DNA of 64,000 nt from contig NZ_CP086727.1 in the NCBI RefSeq assembly GCF_020906275.1, positions 2,728,001 through 2,792,000 on the forward strand, given 5' to 3'. This stretch comes from Parasphingorhabdus litoris DSM 22379. GTDB lineage: Bacteria; Pseudomonadota; Alphaproteobacteria; Sphingomonadales; Sphingomonadaceae. The translations under genes were made by a program, and so were the position numbers. This document shows, piece after piece, positions 31,463-47,864 of this stretch (position 1 is its first letter; the number at the start of each line of letters is the position of its first letter). The notes under the pieces are model-generated. The model had not been told where the DNA came from and searched no databases. It saw only the letters and a program-made list of their open reading frames with translations.

Positions 31463-32410
31463 ATGATGACGAATGATTCCAATACTGGCAGCCAGCCGCC
31501 GGAGCAATTGGGCTTTGGGCGGTTCGTTTTGATTTTTGCGATACTGTTGATCGCCGCGGAACTGTTGCTTCATGCTGTTGGATGGCTGCAACAGCAGCTG
31601 GGCTATTTCTTGCAAGATATCGAAACAGCACCCGTAGCTACTGATATATTTGTAGCGCTGTCGAATGGGATATTCACTTTTTTGACGGTGGCCGCGCTTT
31701 TTGTTTTCATCGAATGGCGGCAACTACGCTTTTCTGATTTTCGAATCCGATATCGCGATGGCTTGATCTACAGCGTGGTAGCGCTGGCGATTTCTATATT
31801 GGTTCAAGCGGCAGAATTTAGCTTGCTTCGGTCATGGGGCGTAGAACCAATATTTGCCGCCGATGATCTGGGGCCCGTACTTGTGGCCTTTCCGCTAATA
31901 TATCTATTGTTACTAGGCCTGATGGAATATTGGCTGCATCGCGCGCTGCATCACTTTGATTTCCTATGGCGCTTTCACGCGATCCATCATCAAATCGAAG
32001 ACCTAAATGCCGCGCGCAGCTATTCCCATTTCGGACAGGATGTAATCTATATATTGCTGATCACCACGCCGCTGGTACTTTTGATCGACGCGCCGCAGCA
32101 GCACATTATGTTGGTCACAACATTTTTTCTGATATCCAATTACTACATGCATTCGGATGCCCCGGCGCTGTCATTTCCTGCGCCCCTACGTCATATTTTT
32201 GCCGACAATGTCTACCATCATCATCATCACACACGCGACGTTCGCCACATCGGCAAAAATTACGCGTCCTTTTTCTCATTTTTTGACCGGATATTCGGCT
32301 CGCAATATATGCCGAAAGACGGAGAATTTCCGGAAACTGGTATCGATGGATATCTGCCAATCGCTTCACTAAGCGATTATGTGTTGCGCCCTTTTGGACC
32401 CAAAACCTAG
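31463..32410 (+). CDS. Sterol desaturase / fatty acid hydroxylase family protein
   Basis: A 315-residue membrane di-iron enzyme. Four or five hydrophobic segments precede the histidine clusters HRALHH (about 160), HAIHHQ (about 173) and YHHHHHTRD (near 253) that bind two irons in the FA_hydroxylase family (PF04116). It should hydroxylate or desaturate a lipid or isoprenoid; the substrate is unknown. It is the first of four same-strand genes: the rhodanese follows after nine bases, then the PiT transporter and the MTA-phosphorylase-like gene. Membership in the arsenic-related group downstream is possible by position only. Confidence 0.88.
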   Translation: MMTNDSNTGSQPPEQLGFGRFVLIFAILLIAAELLLHAVGWLQQQLGYFLQDIETAPVATDIFVALSNGIFTFLTVAALFVFIEWRQLRFSDFRIRYRDGLIYSVVALAISILVQAAEFSLLRSWGVEPIFAADDLGPVLVAFPLIYLLLLGLMEYWLHRALHHFDFLWRFHAIHHQIEDLNAARSYSHFGQDVIYILLITTPLVLLIDAPQQHIMLVTTFFLISNYYMHSDAPALSFPAPLRHIFADNVYHHHHHTRDVRHIGKNYASFFSFFDRIFGSQYMPKDGEFPETGIDGYLPIASLSDYVLRPFGPKT

Positions 32411-32419
32411 GAACACGGG

Positions 32420-32968
32420 ATGAAGTGGAAAGCCAAAGCTTCAATCGCACTGCTGCTTTGCAGCTCGGTAACCGCTGCAGGCTTCATGCTGTTCTCAGGC
32501 GATGATAGTGGTCTTGCGAAAGTCCATGACGGCATAGAAAGCCAATTTACCGAAGTGAGCCATATAGATGGCGATGGCCTGTCGGCCCTGAACCAGGAGA
32601 ACACCATATTGTTTGATGTGCGTGAGGCACCAGAATTTTCCGTCAGTCATTTAAAGGGTGCAATTCATGTCGACCCGGGGATGTCGGAACAGGATTTTAT
32701 CCAGCAATATGCTGATCTCTCTAAAGGCAAGACAGCGATATTCTATTGTTCAGTTGGGCAGCGATCATCTGATCTGGCCAATCGGGTGCAGAAAGCTTTG
32801 ATATCCTCAGGTGCAAAAGCGGCCTATAATCTGGAGGGAGGTATTTTCAAATGGCACAATGAAAGCCGCCCGCTCTTCACTAAAGGAACTGAACGGACTT
32901 CATACGTGCATCCCTATAACCCGATTTGGGGGCGCTTGGTCAAAGATCAGGAAAACACACGATATTAG
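32420..32968 (+). CDS. Exported rhodanese-like domain protein
   Basis: A 182-residue protein with an N-terminal signal or anchor (SIALLLCSSVTAAGFML, about 8-24) and one rhodanese domain (about 48-150: TILFDVREAPEFSVSHLKGA, then the active-site loop FYCSVGQRS). The Cys opens a six-residue CxxxxR-type loop, as in sulfurtransferases, not the seven-residue loop of rhodanese-fold arsenate reductases such as yeast Acr2. The C-terminal part has an extra extension (TSYVHPYNPIWGRLV). It should act in the periplasm on sulfane sulfur. It lies nine bases after the hydroxylase gene and 69 bases before the phosphate transporter. Confidence 0.87.
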   Translation: MKWKAKASIALLLCSSVTAAGFMLFSGDDSGLAKVHDGIESQFTEVSHIDGDGLSALNQENTILFDVREAPEFSVSHLKGAIHVDPGMSEQDFIQQYADLSKGKTAIFYCSVGQRSSDLANRVQKALISSGAKAAYNLEGGIFKWHNESRPLFTKGTERTSYVHPYNPIWGRLVKDQENTRY

Positions 32969-33037
32969 CGTTTGAATCCAGCGATATGTAACAATCTCTT
33001 CTACCAGACCGAACCCTTGCCAATAGACAAAGGGTAG

Positions 33038-34123
33038 ATGATGATAATAACATTGGTCATAGTCGCAGCGCTGTTCCTTGCCTTCGCAAATGGCGCAAAC
33101 GACAATTTCAAGGGTTTCGCGACAGTATGGGGCTCGGCGACTCTTGATTATCGCAAGGCGTTGATAATCGCGACGCTTGCGGCGCTAGCCGGCAGCCTGC
33201 TTTCAATATTACTTGCGCACGGCTTAGTAAAACAATTTTCAGGCAAAGGATTAGTGCCGGACGAAATTGTTGCCTTACCATCTTTTGCGCTTGCAGTGGC
33301 TAGTGGTGCCGCAGCAGCGGTATTGGTCGCAACCCGGGTAGGTCTACCCATTTCAACAACCCATGCCCTGGTTGGCGGTCTGATTGGAGCCGGACTTGCG
33401 AGTAGCGCAGGCGCGGTCAACGTCGGTAATCTGGGTTCGGCGTTCATTCTACCTTTGCTCGTCAGCCCGTTCATTTCGGCTTTTATTGGCTATTTGGTTT
33501 ACCGCTTTTTGCCAGAGAGGAACGTCAATAAGGATTGTATTTGTGTAGTGAAAACGGCACCGCAAGCAACCAGTAACGGCACATTGAAACGCGCCCTGAC
33601 CATGCCTGCGGTTGTCATTGATACGGATGAAGCATGCGCCGTCCACGGGACTGAAGCGGCTCGTGCTTCGGTAAGCAAGACACTGAATTCTGCCCATATC
33701 GCGTCTGCGGCAACCATCTGTTTTGCCCGCTCGGTCAATGACACGCCAAAGCTGGCAGGTTTGATGGTAGTGGTGAATGTTGGCAATACAACATTGTCGT
33801 TAGTCGCCATCGCGATTGCTGTGGCTATGGGTGGGCTATTGCTGTCGCGCCGTGTTGCCGAAACTATGAGCCAGAAGATCACCACCCTCACCCCAACACA
33901 GGGACTAACCGCCAACCTGACCACTGCAGCCTTAGTACTCGCCGCGAGTTTCAAAAGTTTACCCGTGTCTACAACCCATGTCAGTGTAGGTGCGATTACC
34001 GGCGTCGGTGCTGGTGCGCAGACATTATCCGGCTCAACGGTCCGGACCATCCTGCTTTCATGGCTTGGCACATTGCCAATGGCAGGCGTAATCGCGTGGA
34101 TCGTAATGTCACTTGCGGCATAG
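33038..34123 (+). CDS. PiT-family inorganic phosphate transporter
   Basis: Inner-membrane transporter of 361 residues. Both halves carry the PiT signature: FANGANDNFKGFATVWGS (about 15-32) and FARSVNDTPKLAGLMVV (about 228-244), with the repeated P-I/V-STTHA/V motif (GLPISTTHALVGG and LPVSTTHVSVGA). Between the halves lies a cytoplasmic loop with two Cys (NKDCICVV) and EACAVHG. PiT proteins import metal-phosphate with protons and generally also admit arsenate. Located 55 bases upstream of the MTA-phosphorylase-like gene and close to arsM, it could supply phosphate or arsenate to the local pathway, which is inference. Confidence 0.92.
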   Translation: MMIITLVIVAALFLAFANGANDNFKGFATVWGSATLDYRKALIIATLAALAGSLLSILLAHGLVKQFSGKGLVPDEIVALPSFALAVASGAAAAVLVATRVGLPISTTHALVGGLIGAGLASSAGAVNVGNLGSAFILPLLVSPFISAFIGYLVYRFLPERNVNKDCICVVKTAPQATSNGTLKRALTMPAVVIDTDEACAVHGTEAARASVSKTLNSAHIASAATICFARSVNDTPKLAGLMVVVNVGNTTLSLVAIAIAVAMGGLLLSRRVAETMSQKITTLTPTQGLTANLTTAALVLAASFKSLPVSTTHVSVGAITGVGAGAQTLSGSTVRTILLSWLGTLPMAGVIAWIVMSLAA

Positions 34124-34178
34124 GAAAGCTGCGGTCATATCCGGCCAACAATATTTCAACCAAGGCGGAGTCTCGACT

Positions 34179-35048
34179 ATGAGCGAATGGACATTGGGTA
34201 TTATCGGCGGATCAGGGTTGTATCAGCTGGATGCTTTAGAGGATGCGCAATGGATATCAGTGGATACGCCCTGGGGTGCGCCATCCGATGATCTGTTGAT
34301 CGGACATATAGCGGACGTCAAATGCGTATTCCTGCCGCGTCATGGCCGCGGACATCGACTGGGGCCAAGCCAGCTGAATTTTCGCGCCAATATCGATGCC
34401 ATGAAGCGAGCGGGTGTAACGGATTTGGTGTCGATTTCGGCCGTCGGTTCACTCGCCGAAGATATCGCGCCCGGTCATTTCACAGTGGTGGATCAATTTA
34501 TTGACCGCACATTCGCCCGGGAGAAAAGCTTCTTTGGCGACGGCTTGGTCGCTCATGTATCAATGGCCGATCCGGTCTGTCCGCGGCTGTCATCCTATGC
34601 GGCTGATGCCGCGCGCAAGGCCGGAGCAACCGTGCATTATAGCGGCACCTATCTTGCGATGGAGGGGCCGCAATTTTCGACACGCGCTGAAAGTCATATG
34701 TACCGCCACTGGGGTGCTGACATTATCGGCATGACCGCCATGCCAGAAGCAAAATTGGCGCGAGAGGCTGAACTCCCTTACGCATTGATCGGCATGGTCA
34801 CCGATTATGATTGCTGGCGCGAAAATGAAGCCCCTGTTGAAGTCGAAGCCATTATTGCGCAGCTGGGTGCGAATGCTGCAGCAGGTCGCGCGCTTGTCGA
34901 ACATCTGGCAAGATCATTGCCGGAAAAACGGGAAGCGAGTCCGATCGATACCGTGCTCGACTATGCTTTGATCACCGACCCATCGGTTCAAGATCCGGCA
35001 CTAAAGGCAAAACTGGATGCCGTCGGAGGGCGCGTTTTCGGGGCTTAA
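34179..35048 (+). CDS. mtnP: S-methyl-5'-thioadenosine phosphorylase-like enzyme
   Basis: A 289-residue PNP/MTAP-family phosphorylase starting at the ATG at 34179 (AAGGCGGAG upstream). It splits 5'-modified adenosines with phosphate into adenine and a ribose 1-phosphate. Motifs: GIIGGSGLYQLDAL (8-21, phosphate loop), FLPRHGRGHRLGPSQLNFRA, YLAMEGPQFSTRAE (base and sugar site) and MVTDYDCWRE, where the Asp pair indicates 6-aminopurine (adenine) preference. The usual role is methylthioadenosine salvage. Its stop codon overlaps that of the convergent radical SAM gene by four bases, and arsM is next, so the substrate could instead be an arsenic-bearing 5'-deoxyadenosine; that is a hypothesis. Confidence 0.9.
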   Translation: MSEWTLGIIGGSGLYQLDALEDAQWISVDTPWGAPSDDLLIGHIADVKCVFLPRHGRGHRLGPSQLNFRANIDAMKRAGVTDLVSISAVGSLAEDIAPGHFTVVDQFIDRTFAREKSFFGDGLVAHVSMADPVCPRLSSYAADAARKAGATVHYSGTYLAMEGPQFSTRAESHMYRHWGADIIGMTAMPEAKLAREAELPYALIGMVTDYDCWRENEAPVEVEAIIAQLGANAAAGRALVEHLARSLPEKREASPIDTVLDYALITDPSVQDPALKAKLDAVGGRVFGA

Positions 35049-36004
35049 GCCGAGCAACTCGCTCCGCCGAGCACGCAAAAACGCGCGCAATGCGGGTGGT
35101 TTAATGCCACGCTTTGGCTCGCCTCCTTCAACGTTCCGCCCATATCAAATTGTGGATCATAGGGCAGCAGCGTGCAGGCCGCCACACGCGGAGCGGCTTC
35201 TCCCTTGCGCTTTACGACCATACGGCTGGATGAGCACATTATACTAGCCGGATCGACGCTCAATATGCTCCAGCATGCGTCCGTAATTTCGGCAATATCG
35301 GCCTGCGCATCCATTTCGGGGAACAGCATCAATTGTGCAGGATCATCTACTCCGATAGGCCAGCTTTTATGAGCAAATAACGCACGATATCCCGCGCGAG
35401 CCTGTGTCTCGTTCTCGCCCGCTAAATGCCGTCCGGCAACCGAGATGTTAAATCCGTTCGTCGACAGCCAATCCAGCCCATCCAACGCCTTGTCCCAGCT
35501 ATTGGGCCCGCGCTCTGCTTCATGTACGGACTTTGAGAAATGATCGAGACTGACGCGGAAGGTCAATCGCTCACGCTCTTTCAATGCTAGCAAGTCCGTC
35601 TCGAACCGTCGCATGGGTCGCATGGCATTGGTCAGCACCAGCACCTCAAACCCGCGCGAAAGGCAAAGGCGCAATATCGCCATCATATCCTTGTTCATAA
35701 AAGGCTCACCGCCGGTAAAGGCGATTTCGCGCGTTGGCAGATTCTCTGCCGCAATCTCATCCAGAAATGCCTCGACCTCGGCCAGCGTGATATAGACCAA
35801 CGCATCGTTGGTCGGCGAACTTTCAATATAGCAGTTTTTGCAAGCCAGATTGCACAAGGAGCCGGTGTTGATCCACAATGTTTCAAGGTCCGACATATCA
35901 ACGCGCGCGCGCGTTTCGCCCTTGGCGGTTACATCCGGATCAAGAAATTTTTTCGGATCGAGTTTCGGTACATTGGTGACGGAAAATGGAGAAGTCTCTG
36001 ACAT
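35045..36004 (-). CDS. Radical SAM protein beside arsM (not ArsS-like)
   Basis: A 319-residue radical SAM enzyme. The cluster motif is CNLACKNC (Cys51, 55, 58), followed by FTGGEPF (96-102) and LVLTNAMRP. The C-terminal 65 residues hold five more Cys (257, 277, 306, 310, 317; ends HCARFCVLGGASC), suggesting an auxiliary iron-sulfur cluster. The known arsenosugar enzyme ArsS has a different CHVEAGPxR-type continuation after its motif, absent here, so this is another subfamily. It is back to back with arsM (108 bases between starts) and shares its stop region with the phosphorylase gene. The reaction is unknown; adding a deoxyadenosyl group to a methylated arsenical is one possibility, and activating or maturing a small peptide another. 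Confidence 0.85.
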   Translation of the reverse strand: MSETSPFSVTNVPKLDPKKFLDPDVTAKGETRARVDMSDLETLWINTGSLCNLACKNCYIESSPTNDALVYITLAEVEAFLDEIAAENLPTREIAFTGGEPFMNKDMMAILRLCLSRGFEVLVLTNAMRPMRRFETDLLALKERERLTFRVSLDHFSKSVHEAERGPNSWDKALDGLDWLSTNGFNISVAGRHLAGENETQARAGYRALFAHKSWPIGVDDPAQLMLFPEMDAQADIAEITDACWSILSVDPASIMCSSSRMVVKRKGEAAPRVAACTLLPYDPQFDMGGTLKEASQSVALNHPHCARFCVLGGASCSA

Positions 36005-36112
36005 ATAGTCCTATTCGCGATATTTAATCCATTCGTTACATGCAGTGGCAAGTAACTGTAACCCCTTGGCTATATTTTCCGAACCAGTGGTGTAAAATTG
36101 TGGAGCCACTTG
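36005..36112. promoter_or_regulatory. Divergent promoter region between the radical SAM gene and arsM
   Basis: The 108 bases between the two divergent starts must hold both promoters. They include an interrupted inverted repeat GTTAC (36035-36039) and GTAAC (36052-36056), with a further GTAAC just after. A ribosome site (TGGAG, 36101-36105) precedes the arsM ATG at 36113. No ArsR gene is nearby, so what would bind here is unknown. Confidence 0.4.
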
Positions 36113-37168
36113 ATGAATCTCGAAAATAGCCAGAAATATTACGGAGAAGTCCTTGCCGGATCATCCGATCTGCTGACTGACGCTTGCACCATGACCGATG
36201 CGCCGGATGCACGCGTCAGAGCGGCATTGGATAACGTCCATGAAGAAGTGAAGAGCCGTTACTATGGTTGTGGCCTAGTAACACCACAACTAATTGATGG
36301 TACGCGCATATTGGATCTGGGTTCCGGATCAGGGCAGGATGCCTATCTGCTCGCACAGCTTGTAGGCGAACACGGCGCTGTTGTGGGTGTCGATGCCACG
36401 CCCGCGCAGCTAGACATCGCCAATCGGCATATCGAATGGCACCGGGAACGCTTTGGCTATGCGCAAAGTAATGTCCGCTTTATCGAAGGCGATATTGAAA
36501 AGCTTGACGAATTGGACCTCGAACCGAACAGTTTCGATATCATCGTCTCAAACTGTGTCATCAATCTGGTGGCGGACAAAGCTGCGGTTTTCCGAGCAGC
36601 GTTTGATCTCTTGAAACCGGGCGGTGAGCTATATTTTTCCGATGTCTATGCCGATCGCCGCGTGCCAGCACATCTGCTCGATGATCCAGTGCTCCACGGC
36701 GAATGCCTTTCCGGTGCGCTATATTGGGGTGATTTCATGGAGCAGGCGAAGCGCGCCGGTTTCGACGACCCGCGTTTGGTAAAGGATCGTCCTCTCGGTA
36801 TTGGTGATGCGCGTATTGCGGAGATGCTGGACGGGATTAATTTCTACTCTGCAACCTATCGGCTTTTCAAACTGGAAGGGTTGGAGCCCGAGTGCGAAGA
36901 TTACGGTCAGGCTGTTATCTACAAAGGCGGCATAGCAGGACAAGAACGCCTGTTTGAGTTGGACAAGGGTCATACTATCGAGATTGGCCGGGTGTTTCCG
37001 ATTTGCGGTAATTCATGGCGCATGCTGTCTGACACGCGCTTTGCACCCTATTTCGATTTTATAGGGGATTTTTCTCACCACTATGGCGTGTTTGAAGGCT
37101 GTGGCAGCGGCATGCCTTATACAACCACGGCCCATGGCGTGACAGAAGACCCAGCGTTTTGCTGCTAG
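36113..37168 (+). CDS. arsM: Arsenite S-adenosylmethionine methyltransferase
   Basis: A 351-residue ArsM of the long form. It methylates arsenite stepwise to mono- and dimethyl arsenicals using SAM. All four As(III)-binding Cys of well-studied ArsM enzymes have counterparts: Cys25 (LTDACTM), Cys53 in the hallmark YYGCG, Cys148 in VSNCVINLV, and Cys198 in GECLSGALYW. The SAM motif is ILDLGSGSGQDAY (66-78). The N-terminal KYYGEVL block and a C-terminal domain rich in Cys, ending FCC, match the cyanobacterial-type enzyme. The start is the ATG at 36113; a TTG 15 bases upstream is less likely. The SDR gene begins four bases after its stop, so both share a transcript. No arsR or efflux gene is in the window. 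Confidence 0.93.
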   Translation: MNLENSQKYYGEVLAGSSDLLTDACTMTDAPDARVRAALDNVHEEVKSRYYGCGLVTPQLIDGTRILDLGSGSGQDAYLLAQLVGEHGAVVGVDATPAQLDIANRHIEWHRERFGYAQSNVRFIEGDIEKLDELDLEPNSFDIIVSNCVINLVADKAAVFRAAFDLLKPGGELYFSDVYADRRVPAHLLDDPVLHGECLSGALYWGDFMEQAKRAGFDDPRLVKDRPLGIGDARIAEMLDGINFYSATYRLFKLEGLEPECEDYGQAVIYKGGIAGQERLFELDKGHTIEIGRVFPICGNSWRMLSDTRFAPYFDFIGDFSHHYGVFEGCGSGMPYTTTAHGVTEDPAFCC

Positions 37169-37172
37169 GATT

Positions 37173-38255
37173 GTGAACATACTGCTTACAGGTGCGACGG
37201 GAACCATCGGCGGTGAGCTTGCAGCGCGTTTGGTTGCCGCCGGCCACGCTGTCGTTGCACTGGTCCGGAAAACCCGTGACATATATGCAAATGACGGCCG
37301 ATTGTTAGATGCAAGTGATTATGCGGATGTCATGCCCGCGGCTGGCTGTGTCGCCAAATTGACTGGCGATGTGACTTTGCGCGGCCTCGGTCTTGATGAT
37401 CGCTTCATGAAATTGCTCCAGCGCGAGATTGATCTGGTCATTCATTGCGCCGCAACCACTGATTTTAACGCCGGTGCAGATGTGTATCGGAAGGTCAATA
37501 TTGACGGTGTCGTCAATGTTCTTGCAGCCTTGCCCGATGCCCGTTTCCTCCACGTGAGCACAGCCTATGTTTGCGGACTCAAAGACGGACCGATCCCCGA
37601 AGCACCATGTGCACCTGATCAAAATTTCGCCAATGGCTATGAGCGATCAAAGGCGGCAGGTGAAGCACTTGTGCTCGCTGCCGGCAGACGCGCGGTCATT
37701 GCCCGGCCCAGCATTGTCGTGGGGGCGCATGATGACGGCAGCTATCATCGCTTCGATAGCTTTTATCAGCTGTTCCGGCTAATTGCCGAAGGTCATATTA
37801 CGCGGCTGCCCGTGGCGACCGAAGCGACGCTGGATTTTGTTCCTATCGACCATGTTGTGGGCGGACTGATGGATATTGTCAGCCATTGGGAAAAAGCTGA
37901 AGGGAAGATCATTCACCTTACGTCAGAGGCTGCTGTTCCAACCGCTATGCTTGTTGAAGCGATTAGCCTTTTTGACCATCTGGATTCGCCCAAGTTGCTG
38001 GCTCCCGAGACGTTCGCCGTTCAAGACCTGCCTGAATTGGAACGCCGATTATACACACATGTTGCCGCTTTCTACGCCAGTTATTTTCAACGCTTTCCTG
38101 ATTTTGAGACAGAAAACCTGCGTCAAATTAGTGGGCGGATCTGCCCGACAGTTGATCTAGCGGCTTTGAAAAGAATGATAGAATATTGCATCACTAGCGG
38201 CTTCATCCGTGATGCGCGGCCTATCGGTAGTACAACCCAACAGACACCAGTCTAG
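37173..38255 (+). CDS. Extended SDR, thioester-reductase-like
   Basis: A 360-residue NAD(P)-dependent short-chain dehydrogenase of the extended type. The Rossmann motif is LLTGATGTIGGEL (4-16). The middle resembles the NAD_binding_4/thioester reductase group (IDLVIHCAATTDFNA; NIDGVVNVLAAL; HVSTAYVCGLKDG), and the active-site pair is in YERSKAAGE (Tyr and Lys). LDFVPIDHVVGGLMDI is typical of acyl-thioester or fatty acyl reductases. The start is a GTG at 37173, four bases after the arsM stop. The tight link with arsM suggests action on a metabolite of the arsenic pathway, for example making the fatty aldehyde or alcohol part of an arsenolipid; that is inference. Confidence 0.85.
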   Translation: MNILLTGATGTIGGELAARLVAAGHAVVALVRKTRDIYANDGRLLDASDYADVMPAAGCVAKLTGDVTLRGLGLDDRFMKLLQREIDLVIHCAATTDFNAGADVYRKVNIDGVVNVLAALPDARFLHVSTAYVCGLKDGPIPEAPCAPDQNFANGYERSKAAGEALVLAAGRRAVIARPSIVVGAHDDGSYHRFDSFYQLFRLIAEGHITRLPVATEATLDFVPIDHVVGGLMDIVSHWEKAEGKIIHLTSEAAVPTAMLVEAISLFDHLDSPKLLAPETFAVQDLPELERRLYTHVAAFYASYFQRFPDFETENLRQISGRICPTVDLAALKRMIEYCITSGFIRDARPIGSTTQQTPV

Positions 38256-38268
38256 CATATATCGGGGC

Positions 38269-38997
38269 CTAGCGAATATCGGGATACTCGTCAGCCAGCC
38301 TTTCGCGAGCACCCATAGCCCACATCAATCCGACTTTCAGATATATCCAGTTGGCCCGCCAACGGCCCCAAGCAGTAATCCGTCTGTCCGATGTCCAGAC
38401 CCAGCGCGGTATCATACGAATTTTGCCAAAGCGCGACAGTTTGATGCAAAGGTCCGCCTCTTCCATCACCACCACCCGCTCATCGCAGCCGCCGATTTCC
38501 AGAAACTGTTCCCGCCTGAAAAACATCGCATGGTCACCGAACAATAGCCGCACACCGCGAATGAACAGATGCGGCCGGGTGAGCAATGGCGCATACCAGG
38601 TCTTGATCCAGTTGTGCAGCGTCGAACCCCAGCGTGTTCCCTTTGGCCCTGCAATACGCGGTGTGAAGCTGGCCAAACCGGTTTTCCCATCGGCCATAGC
38701 GGTGCGCATGACCGTCACGGCGTCCTTAGGCAATATACTGTCGGCATGGAGCACGCAGACGATCTCGCCCTGCGCTTTCTCCACTCCGAAATTAATTTGT
38801 GCACCGCGTCCTTTTTTGGGTGCAGCGATCACTTGCACTCCTGCGGCCTGTGCAAGGGAAACAGACGTATCGGAACTGCCGCCATCCACAACCAGAATCT
38901 CATCCGCCGGTGGATCCAATGATTTGACGCAGTCCAAAGTGTCCGGCAGCGCCCGCTCTTCATTGAGCATTGGGATCAATATGGTAACCCGGTTCAT
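38269..38997 (-). CDS. Family 2 glycosyltransferase (rSAM/selenodomain-associated transferase 2 type)
   Basis: A 242-residue GT2 enzyme starting at the ATG at 38997, which overlaps the stop of the partner transferase by four bases (ATGA). Motifs: TILIPMLNEERALPDTLDC (about 4-22, nucleotide-binding strand), ILVVDGGSSDTSVSLAQAAG, KGRGAQINFGVEKAQGEI and the metal-binding region LHADSILP. This sequence type corresponds to TIGR04283, named for its co-occurrence with a radical SAM protein now tied to arsenosugar synthesis. It probably attaches or extends a sugar on the arsenosugar, which is an inference from the family association and the neighbouring arsM. Confidence 0.88.
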   Translation of the reverse strand: MNRVTILIPMLNEERALPDTLDCVKSLDPPADEILVVDGGSSDTSVSLAQAAGVQVIAAPKKGRGAQINFGVEKAQGEIVCVLHADSILPKDAVTVMRTAMADGKTGLASFTPRIAGPKGTRWGSTLHNWIKTWYAPLLTRPHLFIRGVRLLFGDHAMFFRREQFLEIGGCDERVVVMEEADLCIKLSRFGKIRMIPRWVWTSDRRITAWGRWRANWIYLKVGLMWAMGARERLADEYPDIR

Positions 38998-39578
38998 GAA
39001 GTCAGCCATGGCCATCGATCCAGATCTTCGGGGCGGTCGCAGTCATGCAATGTTTCCAATAGCTCAAATCCAATCTTTTGCTGCCGCAAACGATGGAGCG
39101 TATCGGGCATAACATGTTCTGTACTCCAGCGCATATTCTCAAACAGAAAAGGATAAGGCTTTGCTATGCCAATTAGATAATAGCCACCATCATCGGCCGG
39201 CCCAATAACCACGTCGGATTTTTGCAGTGCATGAATCGCTGCATTCACATGGTGGGCCGATAGGTCGGGTGTATCGGAGCCCAGAAATATGACCGGCGCA
39301 GGATTGATTGCCGCCAACAGACGTTCAGTCAGATCGCCATCCACCTGCGGCAAATAAGAAAGATCGTTTCCCAACCAACTAGAAAAACTATTGGTGTCGC
39401 CGCCGCTAAACCGGATTTCGACGGACTTACCCGTTTGCTTCAGTGTCTCCACTGTCCTTTCGGTCAGTCGCTTATGAACAGCGGCAGCCGCGTCTGCGCC
39501 CAATGCCGGGATCAAGCGTGTCTTCGCAGATCCTGGCACCGGATAGCGGGTGAAGAGCACCAATCGAAGAGTGTTCAT
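38994..39578 (-). CDS. rSAM/selenodomain-associated transferase 1 (TIGR04282 type)
   Basis: A 194-residue nucleotidyl/glycosyl transferase-like protein with the MobA/CofC fold. Key parts: LVLFTRYPVPGSAKTRLIPALG (about 5-26), PVIFLGSDTPDLSAHHVNAA (substrate-binding acidic residues) and VVIGPADDGGYYLIGI, the signature of TIGR04282. The family is named for pairing with TIGR04283, which follows here through an ATGA overlap. The pair is usually found near arsenosugar radical SAM genes, and here it converges on the arsM-SDR pair with 13 bases between the ends. The likely role is handling an activated sugar for the partner transferase. Confidence 0.88.
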   Translation of the reverse strand: MNTLRLVLFTRYPVPGSAKTRLIPALGADAAAAVHKRLTERTVETLKQTGKSVEIRFSGGDTNSFSSWLGNDLSYLPQVDGDLTERLLAAINPAPVIFLGSDTPDLSAHHVNAAIHALQKSDVVIGPADDGGYYLIGIAKPYPFLFENMRWSTEHVMPDTLHRLRQQKIGFELLETLHDCDRPEDLDRWPWLTS

Positions 39579-39770
39579 AAGCCAGTTCCGGCCAAAATAA
39601 GCATGCGTTCGTGGTCCTTATGATGGCAGCTGAGTAGCCCATGGTTCGATTGAGACGGCTATATCGTTACATAAATTTCATTATTTTCAAACCAGCCTGT
39701 AACAAATCGCCATGTTTCTCCGAAGTTGTTCTAGGGTCCAAAACCCTGACCGAAGATTTAGGAGTATGAT

Positions 39771-40103
39771 ATGAAAAAGCTGAGCTTATTTTTGGCAGCA
39801 GCATCTGTTATGGTCGCGGCGCCTGCATTGGCGTCAGGCGGTGGCGGCGGCGGTGGTTATAGTGGAGGCGGTTTTGGCGCGTCTCAACCACGTGATCCTC
39901 GTGCTGCGGCATTTAGCCAAGGCAAAAGAGCTTTCAAAAAGCGCATTACTTGCAAGAAATGCGAGTATAAGGGCGGCTTTACTGATGGCAAAACGGCGCG
40001 TGAAGTTGCTGCCCGGGTGAAGGCTGGCGAGTTTAATCTGAAACCCAGGCAACGACAAGCTGTGCTCTATTACATGTCGGAACGCTATAGTATCGTCCCT
40101 TGA
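39771..40103 (+). CDS. Small exported Gly-rich protein with a CxxC motif
   Basis: A 110-residue protein with a signal peptide (LSLFLAAASVMVAAPALA, cleaved near 21). A glycine stretch (GGGGGGGYSGGG) follows, then a compact domain: RAFKKRITCKKCEYKGGFTD, KTAREVAARVKAGEF and QAVLYYMSERY. The CKKC pair could bind a metal or form a disulfide; heme binding is unlikely because no CxxCH is present. A ribosome site (AGGAG) precedes the ATG by about five bases. Its stop overlaps the TTG start of the large membrane glycosyltransferase (TTGA), so the two are translationally coupled. The family is unknown to me. Confidence 0.8.
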   Translation: MKKLSLFLAAASVMVAAPALASGGGGGGGYSGGGFGASQPRDPRAAAFSQGKRAFKKRITCKKCEYKGGFTDGKTAREVAARVKAGEFNLKPRQRQAVLYYMSERYSIVP

Positions 40104-42121
40104 GCCAACAGTCATCTGTCGCCGGGCATAGCAACGAGGCGATTGGCTATTCCACAATATTGACGGTGGTAGCGACAATTGCTGCTACCACCGGGCTTGT
40201 ATTGTTATCACAAAATGATGACAGCGCCGTCGTGCCCTATGTGGCATTGCTGAGCCTTGGTAGCTTGGCTGTATTTATTGGGATCTGGCGATCAATGGCA
40301 CTGACAGCCAAAATGGTTTTTGGCGTTGCCCTGATTCTTCATATCGTGGCGATCTTTGGCTTTGCGGCCTTCGAAGATGATTATTTCCGATTTGTTTGGG
40401 ATGGCTGGCGGCTGATAATATCGGGTTCTCCCTATGGTGTCGCGCCTGCAGAGTTTTTTGGAAAATCGCTTCCTGATAACGGTCTTGCACTGACTTTGGA
40501 CGGGATAAACAATCCGCATCTGCCCACAATCTATGGCCCGACGCTGCAATTCATATTCTCGCTTGCCTATATTTTCGCCGGTACAGACCCGTTGGGGTTG
40601 CGGATTTTTTTTGCGGCAATCAACCTGATTCTGGTGGCTTTGCTGCTGCGATGGACCAGTCCAGAGAAAGCGGCTCTTTATGCCTGGTGCCCGCTGGTAC
40701 TGGCAGAAACAATCATCCACATCCACCCCGATGGAGTGATGGCAATGCTATTGCTCGCGGGCATATTGTTGGCAAAGCGCCATCCGCTGTTCGCTGGCCT
40801 GTTCTTTGGACTAGCGGCTGGTGCAAAGATTGTCGCGCTCGCCCTTTGGCCCCTGCTGTTGCGCATGGGATGGCGAGCCTTGATATCGGCTATCGGTACA
40901 TTGGCATTTATCTACGGCATTTTTCTGATTCAGGGACAGGGTGCGGGATTTGATTCAACCGGCATTTTTGCAGCCGATTGGTATTATAATCCCATGGGCT
41001 TTGCGTTGCTTAATGTGCTGCTGCCGTCATCAATAGCAAGGTTAAGCGCTGCGTTGATTGGCATTGTTATCATCTTGGTGCTGCATGCGCGTACACGCAG
41101 TTTGGAAGTCGCTCCTATCGCGATGATATTCGGCACAATATTGCTGTTCGCCCCAGCGGTGAATGCCTGGTATTTGTTGTGGATATTACCGTTTGCGACA
41201 AAGAGCCGTATGGTCTGGCCGTTCGCGGCGGCCGTCGCATTGCCGCTTAGCTACCTAACCGGGCTTAACCTTGAAAACCCGGCGCTGAGGGACTTCGAGG
41301 TGCATTGGATGGCCTGGTTAGCTCAGATCATTATATTGCTGACCGCTATTTTCTGGGACTGTTGGCGTTTCCAACGAGAGAAAAAGGTTGGTAACCCTGC
41401 AGAGATTTCGCGCACACCCATAAAACAGCCCCAAATTACGGTCATCATCCCGGCACTGAACGAAGAAAATTCAATTGGAGAGGTCGTTCGTGATATTGGG
41501 TCACAGAACTGGTCTAATCCACCGCGCATCATCGTCGCGGACAATGGCTCTGCGGACGGAACTGTCGAACACGCCCTGGCCGCCGGAGCGATAATTATAC
41601 GCGAACCGAAGCGTGGCTATGGCGCTGCATGCCTGGCCGGCATCGCTGCTGCCCCACCAGACACGAATATATTTCTGTTCATGGACGGAGATGGAGCTGA
41701 TGTACCGGAGGAAGGGCCTGCCTTGGTTGAACCGCTAACAGACGGCTCGGCCGATCTGGTTATCGGGTCACGGGCCCTGGGGCAAAAGCAGACTGGGGCG
41801 ATGACCTTCCCGCAACAATTTGGTAATTGGCTGGCGACTAAACTGGTTTGGCTGATTTGGGGTAAGAAAATGACTGACCTCGGACCATTTCGCGCCATTC
41901 GTGCTGATGCGCTTGACCGCCTGAATATGGCAGATCTTGATTTCGGTTGGACCATCGAGATGCAGGTTAAAGCCGTGCAACAGAATATGCGTATAGCCGA
42001 ACGTCCGGCCGATTACCGTCGCCGCATCGGTACATCAAAAATATCCGGTACAGTTCGCGGCGTGCTGCTCGCGGGGAATAAAATACTATATGTGATCGGA
42101 CGGGAAGCGTTTTTCCGTTAA
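40100..42121 (+). CDS. GT-C membrane transferase fused to a GT2 domain
   Basis: A 673-residue fusion. Residues 1-430 are a polytopic membrane protein with about ten to eleven helices and an early acidic loop (FEDDYFRFVWDGWRLIISG) typical of GT-C enzymes that use polyprenyl-phosphate sugars (GT87-like). Residues about 448-673 are a soluble GT2 domain of the dolichol-phosphate mannosyltransferase type (ITVIIPALNEENSIGEV, ADNGSADGTVEHA, FLFMDGDGADVPEE, GTSKISGTVRG). One chain could thus make a lipid-linked sugar in the cytoplasm and transfer it across the membrane. The start is a TTG at 40100 coupled to the upstream CxxC protein. The stop overlaps that of the convergent DUF547 gene (shared TTAA). 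Confidence 0.88.
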   Translation: MSQQSSVAGHSNEAIGYSTILTVVATIAATTGLVLLSQNDDSAVVPYVALLSLGSLAVFIGIWRSMALTAKMVFGVALILHIVAIFGFAAFEDDYFRFVWDGWRLIISGSPYGVAPAEFFGKSLPDNGLALTLDGINNPHLPTIYGPTLQFIFSLAYIFAGTDPLGLRIFFAAINLILVALLLRWTSPEKAALYAWCPLVLAETIIHIHPDGVMAMLLLAGILLAKRHPLFAGLFFGLAAGAKIVALALWPLLLRMGWRALISAIGTLAFIYGIFLIQGQGAGFDSTGIFAADWYYNPMGFALLNVLLPSSIARLSAALIGIVIILVLHARTRSLEVAPIAMIFGTILLFAPAVNAWYLLWILPFATKSRMVWPFAAAVALPLSYLTGLNLENPALRDFEVHWMAWLAQIIILLTAIFWDCWRFQREKKVGNPAEISRTPIKQPQITVIIPALNEENSIGEVVRDIGSQNWSNPPRIIVADNGSADGTVEHALAAGAIIIREPKRGYGAACLAGIAAAPPDTNIFLFMDGDGADVPEEGPALVEPLTDGSADLVIGSRALGQKQTGAMTFPQQFGNWLATKLVWLIWGKKMTDLGPFRAIRADALDRLNMADLDFGWTIEMQVKAVQQNMRIAERPADYRRRIGTSKISGTVRGVLLAGNKILYVIGREAFFR

Positions 42122-43071
42122 GCTTGGACTGCTTTTGTGCGCCGACGACGACGGATGAAAAATACAACCCCGCCAACTAGCACCAACAGAACGCCGCCAG
42201 CTGCGGCGCCCAGTATCGGGTTTGACCTTATCAGCCAGATTGGCGAGATGAAGTTCGAATTCTCGGCGTTTCCCGGTCCTTTGCTATCGTTGAGCCGCCA
42301 GTCATATTCCAGAAATGTGATTTCCATGTCTCCGCTATCAAGTGCTTCGATATCCTCAGCGGATAAGCCGAGACTGTCTGCATAGAGTGCGAAAAATTCA
42401 TCCAGCGTTTCGGCACCACGCCAGCCTTGTTCAAAATCACCGCCATACCAGTTGAAGATGCTCGACACTGCGAGGTTTCCGTCCTCAAGCCGATTACGGC
42501 TGCGGTCGCTCAAAAAACCCTTGGTCATCATGTCCAATTGTTGGTCCAATTTGCTGCCGACAAAGGCTTCATTGAGCAATGCTGGGCAACCAATGCTCGC
42601 GCAGTTTACGCCAAAATGAATGCGTGGGTCATTATAGAGTCCGCTGCCACGGATCATATCATGCTCGATATTATCCAGAGATACTGTCTCGCCTAAGAGC
42701 GGGATGAAGGCTTTTTGCCAAGGCGACTGGGTTAGTGATCCCAGTTCCTTAATCGACACCAGATCTGGATAACGGGTGAGAATCAATTCAACCGTCCAGG
42801 CGTTATAGGCATTGATCAGGAAAGCGAGTTGATCCGGTTTCGACCAACCATCAAACTCCGTACGGCTGACTTTTGCCATCGCATCCAGGTAGGATTTCAG
42901 AGCAACGCGATCCTCCTCAAATTTTCCATAATTTACGGTTGAGGAACTGCCATCGGGCACCATCTCAACGTTATCGGTCAGAAGCGCATTCCAGCTGGAA
43001 TGGTCAAAATCTGCCGCCTGTGCGGGCGCAGAAACGAGAAGGGATAATATTGCGATATAGCGATGTTTCAT
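42118..43071 (-). CDS. DUF547 domain protein with C-terminal membrane anchor
   Basis: A 317-residue exported protein. The signal peptide ends after AQA (IAILSLLVSAPAQA). The DUF547 domain covers about 55-230 and shows QLAFLINAYNAWTVELILTRYP, PRIHFGVNCASIGCPALLNEAF (conserved Cys pair) and SSIFNWYGGDFE. A single helix near 282-305 (ILGAAAGGVLLVLVGGVVFF) followed by RRRRR anchors the C-terminus, so the domain faces the periplasm. DUF547 has no settled function; its conserved His, Cys and Asn suggest an amidase or transferase-like site. From memory, such genes recur near ArsM and rSAM-associated transferases, which fits its position here. Confidence 0.88.
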   Translation of the reverse strand: MKHRYIAILSLLVSAPAQAADFDHSSWNALLTDNVEMVPDGSSSTVNYGKFEEDRVALKSYLDAMAKVSRTEFDGWSKPDQLAFLINAYNAWTVELILTRYPDLVSIKELGSLTQSPWQKAFIPLLGETVSLDNIEHDMIRGSGLYNDPRIHFGVNCASIGCPALLNEAFVGSKLDQQLDMMTKGFLSDRSRNRLEDGNLAVSSIFNWYGGDFEQGWRGAETLDEFFALYADSLGLSAEDIEALDSGDMEITFLEYDWRLNDSKGPGNAENSNFISPIWLIRSNPILGAAAGGVLLVLVGGVVFFIRRRRRTKAVQA

Positions 43072-43195
43072 GTCGAGCCTTGCGGAATGATTATGTGATG
43101 TGTTCGGGATGTATGACTAATATTCGTCCCAAAACCGGCAAGCGTTACAATGCGCCAAAAAATTGGTCAGATGCGAATATTGCCACCGTGCTCCT

Positions 43196-43777
43196 TCATT
43201 TTGTGTCAACGATATAGACAGCCTGCTGGTAAAATTTTGCCAATCTATGGATTGCGCTATGGCGAAGGGTGAAGCCCATTCGATCAAAAGTGTCGAGCCA
43301 TTCGGCATGTGACCGGTTGCTATGGGGATGGCCAATAAATTCCATATTGGTAATCTTGTCAGTCAGCTTTGTATAAGCGGCCTGAAACGGAGTGTCATAG
43401 ACATCTTCCATAATGATCAGTCTTTTTGACACGCGCGCGGCTTCCTGCAAAGTTTTGTCGGGCTCAGCTATATGGTGCAACACGGTCAGGATCAACGCGA
43501 CGTCAAATGACCGGTCTTCAAATGGCATGACATCGCCATCATATATAATGGGTTCCAGGTCATCGGTGATGCTGTTGTCCGCGATATCTAGCGCCGTCAC
43601 ATCGAGCCCTTGTTTGCGAAAAACCTTTACAACGCTGCCGGGACCGGAACCAACTTCCAGCAGACGGTCTCCGCGCTCGATCCAGTCTTTCGTCAGCCGG
43701 TATTTTCTCTGAGCATCCATTTTCCAAATAGCGAATATGGTCGCACCAAGGAGAGGAGTTTTCCAAAACAGCTGCAT
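43196..43777 (-). CDS. Class I SAM-dependent methyltransferase
   Basis: A 193-residue methyltransferase from the ATG at 43777; the frame is open 24 codons further but that part is not protein-like. A short hydrophobic start (KTPLLGATIFAIWKM) suggests membrane attachment. The SAM site is DRLLEVGSGPGSVVKVF (about 38-54), with LDVTALDIADNS as motif II and FDVALILTVLHHIAEPDKTL as the post-motif. The substrate is unknown; UbiE/COQ5-like lipid or small-molecule methylation is possible. It lies 124 bases upstream of the DUF547 gene on the same strand and closes the arsenic-related group. Confidence 0.85.
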   Translation of the reverse strand: MQLFWKTPLLGATIFAIWKMDAQRKYRLTKDWIERGDRLLEVGSGPGSVVKVFRKQGLDVTALDIADNSITDDLEPIIYDGDVMPFEDRSFDVALILTVLHHIAEPDKTLQEAARVSKRLIIMEDVYDTPFQAAYTKLTDKITNMEFIGHPHSNRSHAEWLDTFDRMGFTLRHSAIHRLAKFYQQAVYIVDTK

Positions 43778-43881
43778 TTGGCTTCGCTCAATAACAGAAA
43801 TATCCAATATTGATACTGTCAGCAATGCCGGTCGAGCCCGCAAGGACATCAGCTATTGGCCGGTTGGTTTTAGCTATATAT

Positions 43882-43904: not shown

Positions 43905-44173
43905 GTCGAACTTGAAGATGTAGAAGCAAGACCAGCTCCAAGATTCTTACTGTTATATTAACAAAAAATGACAGTTAATCAGTGGTTAACGCAATGGTTC
44001 AGCCAGCCGTCATCAACATGAAAATTCTATGAAACGAAAGTGAAGGTGCACTTAAATACCGCCTTATCCCGTTTACACCGCTGTCACTTTTCGGACATCA
44101 GGGGGCGGGGCAATTACTGAGCGGAGATCTTACAGGGATCAAAGCGGATTGCATGACTGAAAGGGTATTAATC

Positions 44174-45304
44174 ATGAGTTTCAAAACGATGGAGAGTATG
44201 AATTTCAAGACCGCCAAGCGGGCTTTTGTTACAAGGAATGTTCGGATCGGCGATGCCAAAGGCTATCGCAGCGACTTGAAACCGCGCAATGGAGATCTCT
44301 GTGTTGCTCGGGTGAGCAAGATTGGGCATCATCAGCGCATAGAACAACCGGATGGTCGGCGCGCACGGATGTTTCCAGGCGACATAATCATCGTCGCCTA
44401 TTCAAACCGCTACGCGACGGATCAGTTTGAGGGCCGTGTACCCGACAGCGTCGAACCTTGCTCGCTGGTGGCTGCCGGTGGAATAGCCGCCAGCTTAATT
44501 TCGCGGCACAGCAGCACCAAAAAACCAACTGCTATCGAACCACTTGGAATTTTGTGCAGAGCCGATGGCAGTGCGATGAATGTGATGGACTATGCGCTCG
44601 AACAGACCGCTGTTGGGCGTGCCGTACGTCCTCATATGGCGCTTGTGGTCGGATCTGGCATGAACGCTGGTAAAACCACCACCGTCGCCGCGATTATCAG
44701 GGCAGCAAAACAGGCTGGTCTTAAAGTGGGCGCGATCAAAATAACCGGCACAGGCGCTGGCGGTGATCTTTGGTTTTACAAGGACTCCGGTGCCAAGGTC
44801 ACAATTGATTTTACCGATGCAGGCTATGCCGCAACGGTTGGTCTTACGCTGCCTCAGCTCGAAACAATCGCACAAAAACTTTACACAGAGGCCAGCAAGA
44901 CCTGTGACATCATCATCGCCGAAATAGCTGATGGATTGTTCCAAACCGAAACTGATCTGCTGATGAAGTCTCCGAGATTTCAGGCGATGGTTGACAGTGT
45001 GTTGTTCGCCAGTGGTGATCCCATGGGTGCGCTGGCCGGTGTTCGGCACCTTCGAGCATTGGGTTTAGTACCTAGCGCCATATCGGGAGCTCTGACAGCG
45101 TCTGATCTTGCCGCAAAAGAAGCAGCGAAGGCTACAGGCTTGCCAGCTCTGACGTTGAGTGAGTTTGCGCAAAATGAGCAGGTGCTGAGCACAATCATGA
45201 AACCCGCTCGCATTGCGAAAACGCCGGTTCCCGTGGAAACCGTCGAAGGCTTTGGACTTGCAAGGGAATATTCCGATGACAGCCTGTTTACCGCAGCTAG
45301 TTAA
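44174..45304 (+). CDS. P-loop NTPase, first gene of a six-gene operon
   Basis: A 376-residue cytoplasmic protein. The N-terminal part (about 1-110) looks like a beta-barrel domain (GDLCVARVSKIGHHQRIEQ; MFPGDIIIVAYSNRYA). The C-terminal part is a P-loop domain with Walker A GSGMNAGKTTT (160-170), an IKITGTG strand, a possible Walker B (CDIIIAEIADGLF) and a later NTP-binding loop. It resembles MobB, BioD or DUF1611-type NTPases more than kinases, but I cannot name the family. The start at 44174 is preceded by GAAAGGG; an ATG seven codons upstream is possible. Its 3' end overlaps the ABC exporter gene by 29 bases. The role is unknown: synthesis or activation of the exported compound is one guess. 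Confidence 0.8.
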   Translation: MSFKTMESMNFKTAKRAFVTRNVRIGDAKGYRSDLKPRNGDLCVARVSKIGHHQRIEQPDGRRARMFPGDIIIVAYSNRYATDQFEGRVPDSVEPCSLVAAGGIAASLISRHSSTKKPTAIEPLGILCRADGSAMNVMDYALEQTAVGRAVRPHMALVVGSGMNAGKTTTVAAIIRAAKQAGLKVGAIKITGTGAGGDLWFYKDSGAKVTIDFTDAGYAATVGLTLPQLETIAQKLYTEASKTCDIIIAEIADGLFQTETDLLMKSPRFQAMVDSVLFASGDPMGALAGVRHLRALGLVPSAISGALTASDLAAKEAAKATGLPALTLSEFAQNEQVLSTIMKPARIAKTPVPVETVEGFGLAREYSDDSLFTAAS

Positions 45305-46961: not shown

Positions 46962-46973
46962 AAAGACTTAGAT

Positions 46974-47864
46974 ATGGCTTATCTCGAGAAACTAAGTGTA
47001 GGGGAAAATGACATACCCTGTCAGGACATAAGGGATAGAGTACACATTCGTGGGCGTATAACAGCCTCAACCACGCGGGGGCCGTGTGGACTTTCCTATT
47101 TCATCTATCGTCCAAGACGTACTTTCGGGCGCCCCGAACAGGTGATCTTTTCCATTCATGGCTATACGCGCAACGCACTACAGCATGCCGTAGTTCTGCA
47201 GGAACTGGCGGAAGAAAAAGGGTTGACGATCGTCGTTCCGCATTTCACCCGAAAGAAATTTCGACGCTATCAACAAGTCCGATCACATGGGCATAATCCT
47301 TCTCCCGACATCGCACTAATGGAACTGATAGATGAACTGCGAGAGATCGATGATCTTGATCTGTCAACCATCAGGGCAGTTGGCTATTCTGGCGGCGGTC
47401 AGTTTCTTCATCGCTTCATCATGCTTCGTCCCGATATAATTGACCGGGCCGTTCTTTTTGCCCCTGGTTGGTACACGATGCCATATAGTGGATACGCCTA
47501 TCCATTGGGGCTGGGAGATTCCAAGCACCTGGAAAATCGCTCTCTGTCACTGGACGGGTTTCGCAGATCAGAAGTTCTGGTTTTGGTCGGCGATAACGAT
47601 ATAGGGCGGAGCGCAACACTGAATCAAAACAAAGAAATCGACTTTTTGCAGGGCCGCACCCGTGTGGTTAGAGCCAAAACCTGGGTCAAGGCGATGAATG
47701 CGGAACTTCCATCAGAATGTAGTCTCAAGTTGCAATTGCTTAAGGGCTTGCGCCATGGCTTCCGCAGGAATTTCGAAACAAAAGGCTATGGCCGCCTTGT
47801 TTTTGATCAACTGTTGGATGAAGGTCCGGCACCGTTGAGCACTGAGGAAAGCCAGAGCTCTTGA
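46974..47864 (+). CDS. Alpha/beta hydrolase
   Basis: A 296-residue cytoplasmic hydrolase without a signal peptide. The oxyanion loop is VIFSIHGYTRNALQHA (about 57-72) and the nucleophile Ser139 sits in AVGYSGGGQFLHRF, a GxSxGG form. LVLVGDNDIGR offers the Asp and KGLRHGFRRN the His. The closest general type is the prolyl-oligopeptidase/dienelactone-hydrolase-like group. It begins 12 bases after the ABC exporter gene and overlaps the porin start by four bases (TTGA), so it belongs to the operon. It might release, process or inactivate the compound that the operon handles; this is inference. Confidence 0.87.
   Translation: MAYLEKLSVGENDIPCQDIRDRVHIRGRITASTTRGPCGLSYFIYRPRRTFGRPEQVIFSIHGYTRNALQHAVVLQELAEEKGLTIVVPHFTRKKFRRYQQVRSHGHNPSPDIALMELIDELREIDDLDLSTIRAVGYSGGGQFLHRFIMLRPDIIDRAVLFAPGWYTMPYSGYAYPLGLGDSKHLENRSLSLDGFRRSEVLVLVGDNDIGRSATLNQNKEIDFLQGRTRVVRAKTWVKAMNAELPSECSLKLQLLKGLRHGFRRNFETKGYGRLVFDQLLDEGPAPLSTEESQSS

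Follow-up and report, generated by a model that had tools for sequence, protein, structure and literature searches.

An arsM–radical SAM locus of Parasphingorhabdus litoris and a candidate arsenosugar-type pathway in Alphaproteobacteria

The subject of this work is a block of 13 genes around arsM, the gene for an arsenite methyltransferase, in a 64,000-nucleotide stretch of Parasphingorhabdus litoris DSM 22379 (contig NZ_CP086727.1, positions 2,728,001 to 2,792,000; hereafter, the window). We lean towards the view that the genes of this locus specify a pathway of the arsenosugar type, where a radical S-adenosylmethionine (SAM) enzyme from outside the ArsS family would form the carbon–arsenic bond; below, the window-type enzyme is referred to as rSAM-A and its sister clade as rSAM-B. 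We observed the gene content of the locus, its conserved linkage, a class-wide co-occurrence of the key genes, and three types of radical SAM enzymes with the same partners; from these, we infer every chemical step and the product. With high confidence, the radical SAM enzyme and the nucleotidyltransferase-like protein TIGR04282 belong to one pathway, and, with good confidence, arsenic would be the substrate where ArsM is present, the window included. An earlier note on this DNA had proposed the synthesis of an arsenosugar or arsenolipid with the help of a different radical SAM enzyme. The core of this idea finds support in the co-occurrence of TIGR04282 and in ArsS operons that share the partner genes; the end product may be an arsenosugar in free form, a lipid, or something else.

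Co-occurrence of the radical SAM enzyme with TIGR04282

Among 296 genomes of Sphingomonadales, the radical SAM enzyme (both clades, cut-off E 1e-20) was found in 83, ArsM in 50, and TIGR04282 (cut-off E 1e-15) in 89. TIGR04282 was present in 81 of the 83 genomes with the radical SAM gene versus 8 of the 213 without it (Fisher 1.6e-60), or, by a hand count over the curated cut-off, in 62/83 versus 6/213. Kinship among the genomes inflates such p-values; fairer measures are the genus-level count (31 of 32 genera with the radical SAM gene versus 3 of 47 without) and the 18 radical-SAM genomes, representing 17 genera, from outside this order. The latter were part of a test set of 36 genomes that also included one genome with ArsS and 17 with neither enzyme, these being the first ones listed as unmatched, minus two of the window's family and the ArsS genome, and several of them small. 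At E 1e-15, TIGR04282 was found in 18/18, 1/1 and 1/17 of these genomes, respectively, and, over the curated cut-off, in 16/18, 0/1 and 0/17. None of the 18 genomes has the radical SAM gene close to TIGR04282: the two are located on separate contigs or with no less than 169 kb between them, and their co-occurrence is, therefore, not a by-product of linkage.

ArsM was detected in 49 of the 83 genomes that carry the radical SAM enzyme versus 1 of the 213 others (Fisher 3e-32); the sole ArsM genome without the radical SAM gene (G104) is 69% complete, and one of the 49 (G015) has a weak partial match. In this latter genome, a distant ArsM-like protein is encoded ~18 kb from TIGR04282. Canonical ArsS did not exceed its cut-off in any of the 296 Sphingomonadales genomes, with one control genome scoring over it. 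In a wider survey of 162 alphaproteobacteria, the window's genome among them, 46 carried the radical SAM enzyme (that of G771 being rSAM-B) and two carried canonical ArsS, neither of these two having an rSAM-A/B-type enzyme. In eight Sphingomonadales genomes, TIGR04282 is present but the radical SAM enzyme gave no match. One of the eight, G227 (locus L172, no radical SAM match at 1e-20), retains the transferases, a short-chain dehydrogenase/reductase (SDR), a DUF547 protein and an FAD oxidoreductase, perhaps as a decayed or differently supplied version of the locus.

Gene neighborhoods of three radical SAM types

The neighborhoods were compared for 108 rSAM-A loci (that of the window, the 80 top-ranking ones among 224 named loci, and 27 stretches from further genomes), 8 rSAM-B loci, and loci from 20 of the 116 ArsS-carrying genomes. 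Partners were counted within 9 kb as clusters of similar proteins, not as curated families; as the named rSAM-A loci are those most closely related to the window, the rSAM-A fractions are biased in its favor. Also, at least one genome was counted twice (L035 is identical to L127). In rSAM-A, rSAM-B and ArsS loci, respectively, the counts were 62/108, 6/8 and 8/20 for TIGR04282; 61/108, 7/8 and 7/20 for the TIGR04283-type glycosyltransferase; 37/108, 3/8 and 3/20 for the S-methyl-5'-thioadenosine phosphorylase (MTAP); 27/108, 8/8 and 5/20 for ArsM; 35/108, 8/8 and 9/20 for the FAD oxidoreductase; 33/108, 0/8 and 0/20 for the SDR; 15/108, 3/8 and 0/20 for DUF547; and 14/108, 3/8 and 0/20 for a membrane protein carrying a GT2 domain (the GT2 fusion). 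The PiT transporter was seen in 6/108 rSAM-A and 2/8 rSAM-B loci, and the rhodanese-domain protein in 9/108 rSAM-A loci. ArsM abuts the radical SAM gene in 19/108, 4/8 and 4/20 loci of the three types, and MTAP lies within 300 bp of it in 25/108, 3/8 and 2/20.

Some ArsS and rSAM-B operons hold the same partner genes. In a canonical ArsS locus of an alphaproteobacterium (L205), the genes for TIGR04282, an FAD/TVP38 fusion, ArsS, MTAP and TIGR04283 all overlap or abut; an rSAM-B operon (L121) comprises TIGR04282, rSAM-B, MTAP and TIGR04283, the genes overlapping at two junctions, by 4 and 8 bp, and being 11 bp apart at the remaining one; another rSAM-B locus, from a different family (L203), has ArsM, TIGR04282, rSAM-B and TIGR04283. 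Hence, one and the same slot seems to be taken by radical SAM enzymes of three types.

It could be argued that the window simply contains an ordinary arsenic methylation gene among unrelated neighbors, inasmuch as the second methyltransferase, DUF547 and the hydroxylase of this locus are limited to few loci; given the conserved linkage and the co-occurrence, this explanation is already disfavored by the counts and appears extremely improbable.

Several other features recur in these neighborhoods. In six f4/f8 Sphingomonadales loci (L137, L146, L147, L148, L149, L155), a solitary rSAM-A gene is followed by a conserved four-gene run that, as named from reading the proteins, codes for a MetZ-like sulfhydrylase, ApaG, GTP cyclohydrolase I and TrkH. 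In L201, from a one-contig alphaproteobacterial genome of 1.2 Mb (G636), rSAM-A abuts a TVP38-like gene, and a TIGR04282-like gene, below the cut-off (E 3e-22), is found elsewhere in the genome. Genes for an extracytoplasmic function (ECF)-type sigma factor (L103, L110, L121, L123, L124, L143) and for a DUF3047-like protein (L046, L102, L103, L106, L107, L110, L143), both also named from reading, are recurrent near ArsS, rSAM-B or ArsM loci.

The radical SAM enzyme and ArsM

The window radical SAM protein, whose nearest named homologue comes from a Parasphingorhabdus metagenome-assembled genome (89% identity), has nine cysteines that are conserved in a set of 29 sequences, eight of these without exception; the invariant ones include Cys 51, 55 and 58 of the CxxxCxxC motif that is also expected of ArsS. 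As a canonical ArsS the protein was rejected, scoring 64 bits with TIGR04167 (cut-off 300). The DUF3641 domain (PF12345) is found neither in the window enzyme nor in two rSAM-B proteins, whereas the canonical ArsS of L205 has it (185 bits). The score with the HpnH model is 36.7 bits (cut-off 225), and no ArsL model appears among the best 25 of the 45 families shown for rSAM-A. The C-terminal GGASC of rSAM-A may, as judged by eye, correspond to the GSSC consensus of ArsS, in a region (316–319) where the AlphaFold model, of mean pLDDT 86, is of low confidence; for TIGR04167, GxxU is listed in PMC13188914. A pattern MC...[AD]C...C..C...G.SC is visible by eye in rSAM-A, rSAM-B and ArsS. The rSAM-B proteins are 35–41% identical to the window enzyme and are separated from rSAM-A in the tree by a long, fully supported branch; profile comparison gave a full-length alignment of rSAM-A with rSAM-B (E 2e-78), whereas its alignment with ArsS has a probability of 99.1% (E 7.5e-18) and is of low confidence in the C-terminal part.

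In the arsinothricin cluster, too, ArsM is encoded next to a radical SAM enzyme, namely ArsL, which is reported to transfer an aminocarboxypropyl group (PMC8552651). By such chemistry, the 3-amino-3-carboxypropyl group of SAM would be moved to As(III), yielding an arsinothricin-like amino acid, and the methylthioadenosine (MTA) set free would be recycled by MTAP, which one would expect to accompany such a reaction. However, MTAP also stands beside canonical ArsS (L102, L117, L205), for which the reported reaction is adenosylation; sugar-active partners suit a riboside; three conserved cysteines are reported for BgArsL (PMC8552651), as compared to the nine of rSAM-A; and no arsQ-like permease was found among the 19 proteins scanned around the locus. 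We regard ArsL-like chemistry as highly improbable. Since the partner genes are common to rSAM-A and ArsS loci, adenosylation is favored.

The ArsM of the window resembles solved arsenite methyltransferases over most of its length: residues 7–340 of 351 align with 5evj, and the E-values with 4kw7 and 4fr0 are about 1e-76. Its cysteines 25, 53, 148 and 198 are opposite cysteines of 5evj and 4kw7, in accord with the four arsenic-binding counterparts recognized in the earlier note. The protein scores below the NCBIfam cut-off (PRK11873, 156 bits versus 263) and matches NF038099 at 4e-26. The label "ArsM nearby" switches 15 times on the tree and, therefore, the proximity of ArsM comes and goes. 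In f8 genomes with solitary rSAM-A (L166, L168), a distant ArsM-like protein scores 205–215 bits on the ArsM profile.

Organization of the locus

The genes of the block are listed in Table 1. Profile and domain scans located all the genes that the earlier note had named where it had placed them; the conserved block turned out to be wider, as the rhodanese and the OlsE-like hydroxylase join the same run.

Table 1. Genes of the conserved block: window coordinates and supporting matches
Gene product	Position	Strand	Matches and remarks
OlsE-like fatty-acid-hydroxylase family membrane protein	31463..32410	+	PF04116 1e-21; NF052566 63.7 bits (cut-off 475)
Rhodanese-domain protein	32420..32968	+	PF00581; best model NF045521 'rhoda_near_glyco' 95 bits (cut-off 145)
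PiT (PHO4) anion transporter	33038..34123	+	PF01384 3e-62; PHO4 211 bits
S-methyl-5'-thioadenosine phosphorylase (MTAP)	34179..35048	+	PRK08931 449 bits (cut-off 437); TIGR01694 297 bits (cut-off 275)
Radical SAM enzyme, rSAM-A	35045..36004	-	PF04055; CxxxCxxC motif (51/55/58); set of C-terminal cysteines with GxxC at the end
ArsM-type arsenite methyltransferase	36113..37168	+	5evj E 3.6e-102
SDR/thioester-reductase-like, NAD_binding_4 (fatty-acyl-reductase type)	37173..38255	+	PF07993 3e-39
TIGR04283-type GT2 glycosyltransferase	38269..39015	-	177.5 bits (cut-off 182)
TIGR04282 protein, CofC/nucleotidyltransferase-like	38994..39578	-	189 bits (cut-off 134)
Small CxxC-motif protein beside the GT2-fusion gene	39771..40103	+	no family match; 13/81 loci
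Membrane protein with C-terminal GT2 domain and long N-terminal half	40100..42121	+	PF00535 1.8e-22 at 447-606
DUF547 protein	42118..43071	-	PF04784 1.1e-23
Second class I methyltransferase	43196..43849	-	PF08241 5e-15; 5/81 loci

The hydroxylase, rhodanese, PiT and MTAP genes form a plus-strand run (31463–35048) that starts with the hydroxylase. The radical SAM gene, on the minus strand, overlaps MTAP by 4 bp at its 3' end and starts 108 bp from the start of arsM, which is separated by 4 bp from the SDR gene in the next plus-strand run. These are followed by the TIGR04282–TIGR04283-type pair on the minus strand (22 bp overlap), the overlapping plus-strand genes of the small protein and the GT2 fusion, and a minus-strand run of the second methyltransferase and DUF547. 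Since the order of all 13 genes is kept in four relatives (L003, L004, L005, L036), with protein identity of 79–95%, the arrangement is not due to chance. As the earlier note had stated, genes for ArsR, ArsC or arsenic efflux are absent, namely, from among the 19 proteins scanned at 28.7–49.0 kb, the remainder of the window and the genome not having been searched; no FAD oxidoreductase is present inside the window.

MTAP, with a likely start at ATG 34179, exceeds the equivalog cut-offs of NCBIfam and carries the TDYDCW motif. The TIGR04283-type protein falls 4.5 bits short of its cut-off, and the respective members of an ArsS operon (146.6) and an rSAM-B operon (178.4) are likewise below. For TIGR04282, the one solved relative at the E 0.01 threshold is 3cgx, a putative nucleotide-diphospho-sugar transferase (E 2.9e-24). 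The NCBIfam name of this family, "arsenosugar biosynthesis glycosyltransferase", may mislead, as those relatives for which an activity is given resemble nucleotidyltransferases.

Of the additional genes, DUF547, the GT2 fusion, the rhodanese and the hydroxylase (8/81 loci) are lineage extras. The assignment of DUF547 and the "GT-C/GT2" protein to the pathway in the earlier note has, given their frequencies near rSAM-A and absence from the ArsS loci, fared poorly, as has that of the second methyltransferase. In the fusion protein, Pfam detects the GT2 part alone (123 bits with the AglJ model, cut-off 325), the GT-C half being a label from reading. The SDR and the hydroxylase could, as a guess, point to a lipid acceptor. 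A separate plus-strand run at 44153–49024, not counted in the locus, encodes a MobB-like protein, an ABC exporter, a hydrolase and a phosphate-selective (Porin_O_P) porin.

A possible pathway

To our knowledge, the steps after the adenosyl-arsenic intermediate have not been assigned to genes. For the adenosyl product to become an arsenosugar, adenine has to be removed, and the remainder has to be activated and transferred to form a glycoside; MTAP, TIGR04282 and TIGR04283 could serve in this order. Specifically, PiT, which could carry phosphate or arsenate, or another uptake system would import arsenate; ArsM would produce methylated As(III) from As(III); the radical SAM enzyme would add the 5'-deoxyadenosyl group to it; MTAP, alongside its normal function in MTA salvage, would split the product by phosphorolysis into adenine and 5-deoxy-5-dimethylarsino(yl)-ribose-1-phosphate; TIGR04282 would activate this arsenoribose-1-phosphate to a nucleoside diphosphate (NDP)-arsenoribose; and the TIGR04283-type GT2 would pass the latter to an acceptor, e.g. 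glycerol or a glycerolipid. Inverting phosphorolysis, retention, and an inverting GT2 reaction together lead to a beta-riboside; phosphorolysis combined with an inverting transferase would thus yield the beta-riboside of natural arsenosugars, which are beta-ribosides as judged from the compound name in a published title (PMC6656958).

Alternatively, MTAP might merely clear the 5'-deoxyadenosine formed by the radical SAM enzyme, the true product being unrelated to ribosides. MTAP-type enzymes can recycle 5'-deoxyadenosine. This by-product is described as toxic or inhibitory and in need of recycling by cells (PMC8102628, PMC6079011); however, little of it should be released where the adenosyl group is itself transferred by the enzyme, yet MTAP is found in the ArsS operon L205 too, and the tie with TIGR04282 would be left unexplained. 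We consider this alternative quite improbable.

A number of observations speak against the arsenosugar pathway. A close ArsM is absent from 34 of the 83 radical-SAM Sphingomonadales genomes; when 28 of these were rescanned with PRK11873, five (G021, G023, G045, G048, G060) showed a distant ArsM-like protein, that of G023 being a short frame of 147 residues, and 23 had nothing better than about 1e-18. The scattering of genes that the earlier note had named as an adverse outcome is, hence, partly seen, with the radical SAM gene solitary in many genomes and the transferases elsewhere. In G254, a genome of the window's genus, neither the radical SAM enzyme nor ArsM nor TIGR04282 was found. MTAP is the single copy of its genome (at E 1e-4) and scores as a housekeeping enzyme. 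The partners of ArsS in L205 are under their curated cut-offs (TIGR04282, 126/134; MTAP, 263/275; TIGR04283, 147/182). The best NCBIfam match of rSAM-A is the Rv1681 family (NF049973; 98 bits, cut-off 380), with ArsS second; since the ArsS model ranks 4th (L121) or 17th (L118) for rSAM-B, and radical SAM families generally share the core, we do not claim from these sequences any special kinship of rSAM-A, rSAM-B and ArsS. Finally, genomes that are related do not count as independent. The ArsM-less carriers may import methylarsenic, or arsenic may not be the sole substrate of either family; among the canonical ArsS genomes, 7 of 20 have no match at 1e-15 to NF038099, a model other than PRK11873.

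In an alternative scenario, the radical SAM enzyme, TIGR04282, TIGR04283 and MTAP would, in most genomes, make a non-arsenical 5'-modified riboside, with ArsM as an optional or detoxifying neighbor. The 23 rescanned genomes with no other clear ArsM fit this scenario, as do the many ArsM-less rSAM-A loci that retain the FAD oxidoreductase, SDR and transferases. It is at odds with the single ArsM among 213 genomes without the radical SAM gene, with the abutment of ArsM and the gene for each of the three radical SAM types, and with the reported adenosylation of arsenic by ArsS in oxo-arsenosugar biosynthesis (PMC12159101), and seems to us rather unlikely.

Returning to the arsenosugar pathway, we tentatively suggest that a second class of radical SAM enzymes, unseen by the ArsS model, could serve it across Alphaproteobacteria, including ArsM-less genomes that would use environmental methylated arsenic, and that the missing middle of the pathway might consist of MTAP, TIGR04282 as the arsenoribose-1-phosphate nucleotidyltransferase, and TIGR04283. 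The recurrence of this set makes the post-adenosyl steps testable gene by gene. Should rSAM-A be an arsenic adenosyltransferase, most of its carriers among Alphaproteobacteria would escape surveys based on TIGR04167; one metabolic slot would then be occupied by radical SAM enzymes of two or three lineages, and the view of organoarsenic sources in waters and food webs would change.

Relation to known systems

The closest parallel is the ArsM + ArsS arsenosugar pathway known from Synechocystis and further bacteria (TIGR04167, TIGR04282, TIGR04283), with which the window shares ArsM, a radical SAM enzyme, TIGR04282 and TIGR04283, and some of whose loci also share MTAP, as well as, with other rSAM-A/B loci, the FAD oxidoreductase/TVP38. 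The window differs in its radical SAM enzyme, which does not belong to TIGR04167 and lacks DUF3641, in having the SDR, DUF547 and the GT2 fusion as extras, and in the absence of the FAD oxidoreductase. The arsinothricin cluster arsQML of Burkholderia gladioli is similar in the placement of ArsM beside a radical SAM gene; the window, unlike this cluster, has sugar-active partners and more conserved cysteines in the radical SAM enzyme, and arsQ was not seen among the 19 proteins. The Rv1681 family is the top family match of rSAM-A, yet the score of 98 bits is far below the cut-off of 380. In the HpnH/HpnG system, adenosylhopane is formed first and adenine is then removed by a phosphorylase; families and substrate differ from those considered here, whereas the logic, radical SAM adenosylation followed by the action of a nucleoside phosphorylase, would be the same.

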